Shown here one piece after another: positions 17,679 through 27,284 of a stretch of 64,000 bases of DNA. Source of the DNA: Chloroflexota bacterium (lineage in GTDB: Bacteria; Chloroflexota; Anaerolineae; Anaerolineales; Villigracilaceae). The position numbers were made by a program, and so were the translations under genes. Location of the stretch: assembly GCA_016235445.1 (NCBI GenBank), contig JACRLB010000015.1:248001-312000 (forward strand). The letters run 5' to 3'. Within the stretch, counting starts at the first letter, position 1. The number at the start of each line of letters is the position of its first letter. The notes under the pieces are model-generated. The model did no database searches. It worked only from the letters and a program-made list of their open reading frames with translations, and was not told the origin of the DNA.

Positions 17679-18035
17679 TTACTTTGATAATGGCAGATAC
17701 AGAATCTGCCCTTCCAATTCCCCGTGTTCGCAGGTTTCCGCAATGAATAAAATATTTTCTATCGCAATTCCGAGGGGAACTTTACGGCTGACTTCGATAA
17801 CCCCGGGCATATATTTCCCCACATTCACCCGTTCGTAGGCATATTTGGTAATGGTCGCTACGTCATGTGTTAACAGGATGCGATCTTCTTTCGCGGCCCA
17901 TTCCAATACAGTTGGATCGTCTGCTGAAAATAATCCAACATCCTGTACACGGACAATGTCAAGATCAGGTTCAATTCTCAACAAGCCGCGAACGATAGTG
18001 TTGTTGAAGTTTTCATCCGCAATGAGGAAGAGCAT
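17679..18035 (-). CDS. DUF5615 PIN-like toxin candidate
   Basis: A 118-residue protein starting LFLIADENFNNTIVRGLLR. It has the D-E near the N-terminus and DRILLTHDVATITKYAYER in the middle, the acidic pattern of DUF5615 (Mut7-C/PIN-like). Such genes are commonly partnered with DUF433 genes and are treated as predicted toxin-antitoxin pairs. Here the DUF433 gene ends 1 nt before this start. Confidence 0.8.
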   Translation of the reverse strand: MLFLIADENFNNTIVRGLLRIEPDLDIVRVQDVGLFSADDPTVLEWAAKEDRILLTHDVATITKYAYERVNVGKYMPGVIEVSRKVPLGIAIENILFIAETCEHGELEGQILYLPLSK

Positions 18036-18036
18036 C

Positions 18037-18372
18037 TTACTTTTTTCCGCTTTTACGGCGGGCTAGAAGTCTTTCTCGAATTCCAGAAGAACTAAATCTT
18101 TCTTCGTTGATTTTGCGAACTTCCTGGGCTTGTTTTTCGCGGCGTTTTAGATATGTGTCTACTTGTTTTTTTTGGCGCAGGTAGTAGCCAATAACAGAGT
18201 AAATATCAGCCAGTGGCACGGATGGATATTGATAGGAGATTTCTTCTGCGGTTGCGCCTTCGGTAAATGCGGCGATGAGCGTATCCAGCGTTACCCGTGT
18301 TTTGCTGACAAGGATGACGCCATCCTTGTTCATTTTTAGTGGGATGATTTCTGTGATTGTCGTAACTACCAT
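18037..18372 (-). CDS. DUF433 domain protein, candidate antitoxin
   Basis: A 111-residue protein with the DUF433 core: DGVILVSKTRVTLDTLIAAF, GATAEEISYQYPSVPLADIYSVIGYYL. This is a helix-turn-helix-like fold often found as the antitoxin partner of DUF5615. The C-terminal 40 residues are Arg/Lys-rich. It directly precedes the DUF5615 gene in the same operon. Confidence 0.82.
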   Translation of the reverse strand: MVVTTITEIIPLKMNKDGVILVSKTRVTLDTLIAAFTEGATAEEISYQYPSVPLADIYSVIGYYLRQKKQVDTYLKRREKQAQEVRKINEERFSSSGIRERLLARRKSGKK

Positions 18373-20167: not shown

Positions 20168-21367
20168 TTATAAAATTTCAGAAATATCTTTTAGATTCAG
20201 GATTTTTTCCAAAGGCACAGTACTTGCACCTGAGGCTGTGCGGATTTTCAATTCCACCATTTCGTCTTTCAGCGCCTTTTCGCCTGCGGTAATTCGGATG
20301 GGACAGCCGATCAGATCCGCGTCGTTGAATTTGACTCCTGCGCGTTCATCGCGATGATCGAACAAAACGGAAATACCTGCGCGTTGCAATGCGTTGTAAA
20401 TTTCTTCGGCTTTCTCCAATGTGTCGATGGTCTTGCCGGGCACATGCATCAGGTACACATCGAACGGCGCGGCAGATTTTGGGAAAGCCAGTCCCTTTTC
20501 ATCATGGTGCGTTTCAGCGAGCGCAAGCAAAATATTTTCAAACTGGAACCCGGAGCCTGAAGCCAAACTAATGGTCACAAGCGTCGAAAGCGGATTTCCA
20601 CAATTCACACAAAGATCGCCCGCTTTGGCTTGCGTCACATCTGCAACAATTTCGGCGGAATAATCGCGCAGATAATTTGTGTTCTTGAGATGATAGCCCG
20701 CCTCATTTGCACCCGCCACAAGATTTTGCGAACGGGGGATCAATTCATCCATGACGATGAGCGCATTGCTCAGCCCAATGGGGGATGCAAACCCCGCCTC
20801 TGCTCCCGCCCTGCGAACTGATTCTGCATCTGCCAGTTTTATCTCCCCGACAATGTTCTTCAGTTTCGCTTCGCTCAACTGCATATCTCCGCGCACCACG
20901 ATGAAGATGAATTGCCCGTCTGAGACGCGGGTGTACATCAGCGCTTTTGCTGTTTTCTCTTTTGGCACACCGAGGAAATTTGCCAGCGACTCGATGGTGT
21001 TGCAATCAGGTGTGGACACTTTTTCGAGCGGAAGTTCTTCTTCACGCGGCAGGGCTTTCTTTTTGAATTGAGCAAACTCGATGCGCTCCGCATATTTGCA
21101 GGATTCGCAATGGGCGATTTCCACATCCCCAGTGGGGAGGGGGAAGAAGGTTTCGTGATCGTTTAGTAAAAGATGCAACGAGAGATGAAAGAGGAAAGAA
21201 GCATCTTCTGACAAATGTTGCAGGCGTAAAATGGCTTGCTGACCGAGCGGCAGTATTTCATTTTCGCGGGTCAAATATCCGGCGCGGACGAGGAAGGCGA
21301 ATCCCTCTGTCCGTGCATTGTTGGGGGCTTCACGCTGGGTTTGAATTTTGAGGTCTGTATATTTCAT
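20168..21367 (-). CDS. ProRS-like protein with INS editing and anticodon-binding domains but no visible catalytic core
   Basis: The ATG at 21367 gives 399 residues, against about 570 for INS-containing bacterial prolyl-tRNA synthetase. The N-terminus (FAFLVRAGYLTREN, LPLGQQAILRLQ) resembles the start of ProRS. The roughly 150-residue block that normally holds class II motifs 1 and 2 is missing, and the protein passes straight to EIAHCESCKYAERIEFA. The INS/YbaK editing domain is well kept (about 120-240, with GVPKEKTAKALMY and VVRGDMQLSEAKLKN). After CVNCGNPL the motif 3 region is replaced by unrelated sequence lacking the usual GIGxSR. APFDVYLMHV starts a full anticodon domain to residue 399. 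It could be a trans-editing factor or a degenerate paralogue. In-frame extension upstream of 21367 runs into repeat DNA and is rejected. Confidence 0.82.
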   Translation of the reverse strand: MKYTDLKIQTQREAPNNARTEGFAFLVRAGYLTRENEILPLGQQAILRLQHLSEDASFLFHLSLHLLLNDHETFFPLPTGDVEIAHCESCKYAERIEFAQFKKKALPREEELPLEKVSTPDCNTIESLANFLGVPKEKTAKALMYTRVSDGQFIFIVVRGDMQLSEAKLKNIVGEIKLADAESVRRAGAEAGFASPIGLSNALIVMDELIPRSQNLVAGANEAGYHLKNTNYLRDYSAEIVADVTQAKAGDLCVNCGNPLSTLVTISLASGSGFQFENILLALAETHHDEKGLAFPKSAAPFDVYLMHVPGKTIDTLEKAEEIYNALQRAGISVLFDHRDERAGVKFNDADLIGCPIRITAGEKALKDEMVELKIRTASGASTVPLEKILNLKDISEIL

Positions 21368-26602: not shown

Positions 26603-27001
26603 TTATACAAACACTGCGCTTGAAACTTTGAACTTCTCCGCCAAAGAGCGGACTTGGCGAACGTTCAACTCACGTTTTCCATTCAATATTTCAGAGACTA
26701 CACCTTGTGAGCCCACTTCTGGCAAATCAGATTGAGTTAATCCATATTCATCCATAAGGAAGCGCAATACTTCCGCGCCACTGACATCTGGAATCGGATA
26801 GTGCTCTTCTTCATAAGCATGGACTAATGTGCCGAGCGTATCCAGTAAACCATAAAGCGGATGTTTCTCGTTATCCCCAATTTCATCCAGCAATTCGTTG
26901 AGTCGTTTCACTGCCGCGTTGTATTCGCGCTCGTTGCGGATGGTGAGCAGGGGAGCGATGTTCATCCAGTGGATTTGGAGTTCTTCATTTAGGAGTGTCA
27001 T
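26603..27001 (-). CDS. higA: HigA-type antitoxin, XRE helix-turn-helix
   Basis: A 132-residue protein. The C-terminal helix-turn-helix is clear (LRFLMDEYGLTQSDLPEVGSQ, VSEILNGKRELNVRQVRSLAEKF), after an N-terminal domain typical of the longer HigA family (RNEREYNAAVKRLNELLDEIG). The ATG at 27001 is preferred over upstream in-frame starts. It overlaps the higB gene by 17 nt. The antitoxin binds the toxin and its own operator in this family. Confidence 0.9.
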   Translation of the reverse strand: MTLLNEELQIHWMNIAPLLTIRNEREYNAAVKRLNELLDEIGDNEKHPLYGLLDTLGTLVHAYEEEHYPIPDVSGAEVLRFLMDEYGLTQSDLPEVGSQGVVSEILNGKRELNVRQVRSLAEKFKVSSAVFV

Positions 27002-27284
27002 TTTTCCAATCTCCTCGATCATATTCTGCATGGGTCAGAACATAACGGATATAAACTTTGCCGCGATTGAAATGGATGGATGTGATCAACCTGTATTTGT
27101 TGCCGCCAATATTGAAAATGATCCAATGATCTAACTTATCGGCGGAGGGGAATACTTGTCTCAATTCGGCAAAACTGTTGAAATCAGTTTTTTGCACGAT
27201 CTTGAACCAGCGCATTAACCCCGTTTGGATGTCAGGATGTTTCTCCCAAAACTGGATCAGCGTTTTGCGGGTGATGATGTGCAT
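26985..27284 (-). CDS. higB: HigB-type mRNA interferase toxin
   Basis: A 99-residue RelE-fold toxin of the HigB family: MHIITRKTLIQFWEKHPD, FNIGGNKYRLITSIHFNRGKVYIRYVLTHAEYDRGDWK. These proteins cleave ribosome-bound mRNA. It is the first gene of a higB-higA pair with overlapping coding regions, followed by brnA on the same strand. Confidence 0.92.
   Translation of the reverse strand: MHIITRKTLIQFWEKHPDIQTGLMRWFKIVQKTDFNSFAELRQVFPSADKLDHWIIFNIGGNKYRLITSIHFNRGKVYIRYVLTHAEYDRGDWKNDTPK

Follow-up and report, generated by a model that had tools for sequence, protein, structure and literature searches.

A prolyl-tRNA synthetase derivative without a catalytic core as a probable trans-editing factor for tRNAPro in Anaerolineae-type Chloroflexota

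Introduction

Archaeal ThrRS-ed works beside a threonyl-tRNA synthetase (ThrRS) that has no editing domain. This pairing agrees with the title of a work cited in PMC4787780, the accessible part of which lists ThrRS-ed as a stand-alone trans-editing factor. In the accessible sections of a 2024 review, it is a trans-editing protein derived from a synthetase, with an editing and an anticodon-binding domain (ABD) (PMC11295145). For prolyl-tRNA synthetase (ProRS), the available sections of PMC3973320 describe an editing domain, INS, that has no intrinsic recognition of tRNAPro and depends on the ABD reading G35 and G36, the identity of the acceptor stem being irrelevant to INS. In the same sections, ProXp-ala reads G72 and A73 of the acceptor stem, and YbaK lacks intrinsic tRNA specificity (PMC3973320). 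According to the accessible part of the review, members of the INS superfamily besides INS are single-domain proteins, although it also describes a ProXp-ala of plants that has an additional domain at its C-terminus and fusions of ProXp-ala to ProRS (PMC11295145).

The protein described here is encoded in a 64,000-nucleotide stretch of DNA from a Chloroflexota bacterium, which was analysed as a whole and is called the window below. Like ThrRS-ed, it has a coreless layout and occurs beside a separate charging enzyme, a likeness of working and not of descent; unlike ThrRS-ed, it has an unrelated editing domain (INS), would act on tRNAPro instead of tRNAThr, and is bacterial instead of archaeal. 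Its expected reaction would be that of ProXp-ala, which deacylates Ala-tRNAPro in trans where the ProRS has no INS domain, but in contrast with ProXp-ala the protein keeps an anticodon domain. The freestanding INS proteins YbaK and ProXp-x share the fold of its residues 110 to 247 but have no anticodon domain. Searches of open-access full texts gave no title or abstract that describes a ProRS stripped of its core but still equipped for editing and anticodon binding. The available part of PMC9437257 names only ProRSx under ProRS, and since it covers only duplicates that keep the catalytic domain, its silence says little.

Results

Gene and domain layout

The gene occupies positions 20168 to 21367 on the minus strand of the window, with its ATG at 21367 and its stop codon ending at 20168. 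Profile searches and the alignments of relatives identify the product, of 399 amino acids, as a coreless, ProRS-derived (ProRS-ed-like) protein. A longer frame of 507 amino acids that starts with TTG is present at the same locus. A wrong start codon for the 399-residue frame was ruled out because all 18 named relatives (18/18) have an ATG precisely at the point that matches residue 1; the invariant M1 of our alignment A1, for which starts were picked by hand near that ATG, carries no weight.

The initial annotation had assigned INS/YbaK and anticodon-binding domains and two CxxC pairs to a 399-residue protein, and all of these were recovered. The INS/YbaK-type tRNA editing domain (PF04073; residues 119 to 234, positions 20666 to 21013, minus strand, with K141 and H226) scored 77.5 bits against a Pfam cut-off of 25.5. 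The ProRS anticodon-binding domain (PF03129; residues 304 to 390, positions 20198 to 20458, minus strand), identified by Pfam and by PDB sequence matches, scored 61.4 bits against a cut-off of 21 and retains the conserved DxR...RAGxKFxDAD core. The first CxxC pair (C87 and C90; 21098 to 21109, minus strand) lies ahead of the editing domain and the second (C253 and C256; 20600 to 20611, minus strand) lies past it. C87 and C90 are invariant in 17 of 17 aligned coreless proteins, and in a set of 19 sequences C87 is invariant and C90 nearly so; C253 is invariant and C256 nearly so among the 17, and both are invariant among the 19. The two pairs flanking the editing domain presumably form a zinc knuckle. 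Full-length ProRS-II relatives from the class also have the CxxC region.

Bacterial P-type (family II) ProRS with INS is the parent family, to which the INS domain, the ABD and the N-terminal remnant align. The closest sequence relatives in the PDB are family II ProRSs, aligned in separate pieces, of which the weak first piece covers residues 1 to 35. Residues 1 to 32 (21272 to 21367, minus strand), aligned to the N-termini of the Enterococcus faecalis and Escherichia coli ProRSs, look like a leftover of the ProRS N-terminus; on their own they match it with only 7.5 bits, and they are alike across the 17 aligned coreless proteins.

Loss of the synthetase core

No synthetase-core Pfam family was found in the protein at an E value of 1 or better. 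The full-length ProRS model NF006625 gave 244.8 bits, below its cut-off of 558. The YbaK model TIGR00011 gave 18.6 bits (cut-off 153.25), and NF011500, a Ser-tRNA(Thr) hydrolase model, matched just the anticodon domain, at 18.2 bits (cut-off 362). The best NCBIfam matches, all under their cut-offs, are proline--tRNA ligase models, which calls for caution in annotation.

In the alignment with E. coli ProRS, the coreless protein has no counterpart of T109 and E111, of R140 and E142, or of R450, which we take to represent the TXE motif, motif 2 and motif 3, respectively. The motif 1 proline has no aligned equivalent either, and of 15 catalytic sites scored none is kept (0/15). In these residues, which are needed for the activation of ATP and proline, the protein differs from P-type ProRS, and the earlier observation that class II motifs 1 and 2 are absent and motif 3 replaced is thereby borne out at the level of the motif residues.

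Predicted structure

The AlphaFold model built with 18 relatives reached a pLDDT of 92.0 and a pTM of 0.85, with no stretch below 50. The top Foldseek match was E. faecalis ProRS (2j3l; E value of 1.8e-36, TM-score of 0.79 by query), and VIA-align superposed 394 residues of the model on this enzyme with a Z score of 28.7 and an rmsd of 3.7 Å. The structural scaffold thus seems, in the model, to remain though the catalytic part is lost. Structure prediction had been proposed initially as a way of recognizing a divergent true ProRS: the model is indeed compact, but the active-site residues of a synthetase are gone. Residues 110 to 247 matched the freestanding INS proteins 1wdv, 2cx5 and 2dxa with Z scores of 17.2, 15.8 and 14.8, respectively. 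The model also matched 1g5h, the accessory subunit of polymerase gamma (Z score of 15.7), another derivative of a class II synthetase that is not known to charge tRNA.

Editing site and selection

We take E. coli H369 to shape the alanine pocket and L266 to have a role in INS as well. The alignment of catalytic INS residues, suggested as a check at the outset, places E. coli K279, H369 and L266 at K141, H226 and L128 of the coreless protein, all three kept. Replacement of K279 by alanine makes E. coli ProRS editing defective, according to the accessible text of PMC3973320.

The editing Lys is present in 56 of 56 copies with decayed cores and in approximately 98% of 52 coreless copies, and the editing His in all of both groups. 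On average, decayed copies keep 94% of the reference-invariant columns in INS, 92% in the ABD and 35% in the core, the 56 including two near-coreless copies (G231 and G156) and a truncated ORF (L102, from G030) that is listed separately in the class tally below. The corresponding means for the coreless copies are 90%, 87% and 2%; these include a misclassified fragment of a frame-broken full-length gene (L168, from G153) and a copy broken by in-frame stops (L196, from G155), both of which drag down the lowest values. Conservation is lower than in INS and the ABD for the N-terminal remnant and for the region of the first CxxC, at 74% and 57% in decayed copies and 46% and 52% in coreless ones.

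Compared with its closest relative (from G257), the gene has an overall dN/dS of 0.096 (N-terminus 0.097, INS 0.094, ABD 0.071); five more distant relatives gave 0.11 to 0.14, with dS near saturation. Judged by these ratios, the coreless protein is under purifying selection. Together with the conservation of the domains, this upholds the earlier remark that the intact frame does not look like a fresh pseudogene.

Other proteins and tRNAPro in the same genome

The source assembly consists of 55 contigs and has a completeness of 98.28%. Four of its proteins match PF00587 and were read from their translations as ThrRS, SerRS, HisRS and a family I ProRS (ProRS-I). The last (L008, P0002) scored 555.5 bits on TIGR00408 (cut-off 437) and is the complete ProRS that the initial annotation had proposed to look for elsewhere in the genome. 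None of the five PF04073 places of this genome falls within ProRS-I. The ProRS-I gene and the coreless gene are on different contigs, the latter more than 100 kb from a contig end. An exact pattern search, which may miss others, located two tRNAPro genes, whose anticodons are UGG and CGG; each of them has C1:G72 and A73.

The four other PF04073 proteins of the genome are freestanding. L003 is nearest to YbaK (2dxa) and L002 to 2cx5, with L001 and L005 less clear-cut. In the accessible part of PMC11295145, 2cx5 is ProXp-x and 5vxb is ProXp-ala. The PDB matches of these four proteins at an E value of 0.001 do not include 5vxb, and on this criterion ProXp-ala would be absent from the genome.

Two further pairs of small ORFs were observed on the minus strand of the window. 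The adjacent ORFs at 17679 to 18372 (118 and 111 amino acids) look, in our reading, like a DUF5615/DUF433 toxin-antitoxin-type pair, and the overlapping ORFs at 26603 to 27284 (142 and 99 amino acids) resemble a HigA/HigB-type toxin-antitoxin pair.

The coreless form within the family

Among 120 genomes of the family, 111 match the coreless protein (G150 and G252 solely through their ProRS-I) and 113 have ProRS-I. The coreless class accounts for 52 of the 81 family genomes examined by residue, 77 of which have complete ORFs. In the rest of the family, the ORFs have approximately 514 to 566 amino acids with decayed cores or approximately 599 to 655 with intact cores, two of the long ones (from G163 and G192) being partly decayed, with 9/15 sites. 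Named metagenome-assembled genomes with the coreless form include, among the matches listed, Anaerolineae bacterium UTCFX1 and other Anaerolineales, and among the family matches listed internal stops occur only in G155. A coreless-type gene and ProRS-I share one contig in G027, G197, G201, G185 and G221, on which ground a mis-assembly or binning artefact was rejected. G257 has a coreless copy and no ProRS-I match in an assembly that is 95% complete; we take this as a probable assembly gap.

Core decay and ProRS-I across the class

In a sample of 150 genomes of the class, 125 match the coreless protein, although matches near 1e-11 may be just the anticodon domain of ProRS-I, and 109 have ProRS-I. 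The 15 catalytic sites were scored on complete ORFs from 115 class genomes, a core being called intact with at least 12 sites and decayed with at most 10. Of the matching genomes, G088, G090, G105, G107 and G143 were omitted and five others had only edge-cut ORFs; 195 ORFs were aligned in all, and the 10 that reach the edge of a contig enter neither the conservation figures above nor the class tally. Where ProRS-I is present (82 genomes), the core of the family II enzyme (ProRS-II) is decayed in 50, intact in 31 and truncated in one. Where it is absent (33 genomes), 32 cores are intact and one is decayed (G024, with 10/15 sites in an assembly 79% complete). Fisher's test, which ignores shared ancestry, gave a p value of 1e-9 for ProRS-I versus decay. 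With the ProRS-II core intact in 31 of the 82 ProRS-I genomes, decay is not an inevitable consequence of having ProRS-I. The reference residues of 15/15 sites also occur in E. coli ProRS, and the scoring is thereby anchored outside the genomes free of ProRS-I as well.

Decayed copies occur in 19 of 42 listed class families. In a quick tree of INS and ABD, in which long branches meet, the decayed state needs 15 changes and the starred branches force at least three; the tree has 148 rows, with 17 coreless or near-coreless representatives of the family, and was made without L102, L168, L183, L196 and L198. An independent-pairs test, powerless at 8 pairs, gave on average 1.2 pairs in the same direction and 0 in the opposite one. 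Of the at least 80 named loci listed, 8 sit in records of other phyla, and their 7 complete ORFs score 14 or 15 of 15 sites; in this small sample of the matches listed, no core decay was seen outside Chloroflexota.

Several observations concern individual genomes. In another family of the class, G086 has a ProRS-II relative of 511 amino acids (L021) with a decayed core (3/15 sites) and recognizable editing and anticodon domains, a separate case in which the loss has gone less far. Leu replaces Lys in the motif 2 stretch REF.MKD in L091, L030, L038, L106, L167 and L032 (genomes G031, G092, G118, G131, G069 and G094), the cores being otherwise nearly intact and ProRS-I present in all six; this replacement may mark an early stage of inactivation. 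The genes for ProRS-I and ProRS-II are only a few kilobases apart, on a single contig, in G163 (L184), G182 (L187), G151 (L190), G218 (L180) and G213 (L171) of the family and in G012, G048, G056, G084 and G118 of the class, which suggests that they were once a tandem pair and that the coreless genera subsequently lost this linkage.

ProRS-I genomes in which the coreless protein has no match

Of the 150 class genomes, 21 carry ProRS-I but nothing that matches the coreless protein at an E value of 1e-10. Ten of these were searched for PF04073. Freestanding INS genes, one or two per genome, turned up in eight of them, and 11 of the 12 genes were typed, as YbaK-like, ProXp-x-like or of unassigned type. 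The two other genomes, G074 (93% complete) and G140 (100%), gave no PF04073 match at an E value of 0.001 and may be without INS-type editing. Genomes with ProRS-I that have no matching protein imply that some lineages can do without this way of editing Ala-tRNAPro. A distribution complementary to that of ProXp-ala was not borne out, no ProXp-ala being recognized among the typed INS genes of these ten genomes. A plasmid search for a ProXp-ala query led only to places that were unannotated or annotated as ProRS, as a hypothetical protein or as YbaK/EbsC.

Discussion

The coreless protein is probably, at a rough probability of 0.8, a dedicated trans-editing factor for mischarged tRNAPro that arose from a family II ProRS by loss of the active site. 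The presence of ProRS-I and the kept INS and ABD argue for the role first proposed, that of a trans-editing factor that would choose tRNAPro by means of a ProRS anticodon domain. In the proposed mechanism, ProRS-I would charge tRNAPro, at times with the wrong amino acid, and the anticodon domain would grip G35 and G36 of tRNAPro, including tRNAPro released by ProRS-I. The 3' end would then be set into the INS pocket, where the Lys/His site would hydrolyse the wrong ester. This ester is most likely that of alanine, based on the descent of the protein and on the role taken for H369. Ala-tRNAAla would be spared, as its anticodon would not fit. Since INS needs the ABD to recognize tRNAPro, a lineage that sheds the core while INS stays in demand is predicted to retain the ABD, as is observed. 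For misacylated tRNA, EF-Tu can face competition from complete ProRSs, according to work cited in the accessible part of PMC4787780.

A main substrate other than Ala-tRNAPro, for instance tRNAPro charged with Cys or with a non-protein amino acid, or a different tRNA, is unlikely, and this alternative overlaps the preferred reading in all but the substrate. It draws on the common active-site features and differing amino acid choice of INS-superfamily members, described in the part of PMC11295145 available, and on some ProRS-I genomes without any recognized Ala-tRNAPro editor. However, H226 and L128 preserve E. coli H369 and L266, the genome already has a YbaK-like protein and a 2cx5/ProXp-x-like one, and the ABD retains its DxR...RAGxKFxDAD core.

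The regulator that the initial annotation had offered as an alternative gained little support. As a regulator or assembly partner, the protein would be a pseudo-synthetase that binds tRNAPro and either detects its uncharged form or modulates ProRS-I, the editing pocket being structural only. Synthetase-derived proteins can turn into partners or regulators, such as SLIMP in the available text of PMC9437257, and the neighboring ProRS-I and ProRS-II genes of several genomes would fit a complex. A pure binder would, however, have no need of the hydrolytic Lys and His, which are among the best-kept residues; moreover, Pfam reveals no effector domain, and in its own genome the coreless gene is on a different contig from ProRS-I. 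We regard this reading as improbable, more so than a different substrate.

A decaying pseudogene or a divergent active ProRS, to which the descent from ProRS and at least one broken coreless copy (G155, with in-frame stops) might point, is scarcely credible: a pseudogene was ruled out by the dN/dS of 0.096 and the residue conservation, with internal stops only in G155 among the matches listed, and an active ProRS was rejected given the missing TXE, motif 2 and motif 3 residues and the complete ProRS-I in the genome.

For a trans-editing factor with this ancestry, the class-wide pattern points to a possible route. The presence of ProRS-I would have relaxed selection on the core of ProRS-II, leading to its decay or deletion, with proofreading still selected. 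We find it reasonably probable that in Anaerolineae-type Chloroflexota a second, family I ProRS repeatedly made the resident ProRS a dedicated proofreader, its core having decayed in at least three lineages, and in one family to the point of deletion, with INS and the anticodon domain staying under selection.

If this is true, the coreless protein would be the first trans-editing factor known in the INS superfamily to have the anticodon-binding domain of a synthetase, and would parallel ThrRS-ed in bacteria with specificity for tRNAPro. How anticodon recognition reaches the distant INS site is given as an open question in the accessible sections of PMC3973320, and the molecular basis of this coupling was still poorly understood in 2024, as stated in those of PMC11295145. 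With approximately 400 residues and little beyond INS and the ABD, the protein would be a minimal system for studying it. The class would offer a natural experiment in which proofreading is split from charging within one synthetase, and its series of intact, decayed and deleted cores may illustrate how an enzyme sheds its main activity and survives on quality control.
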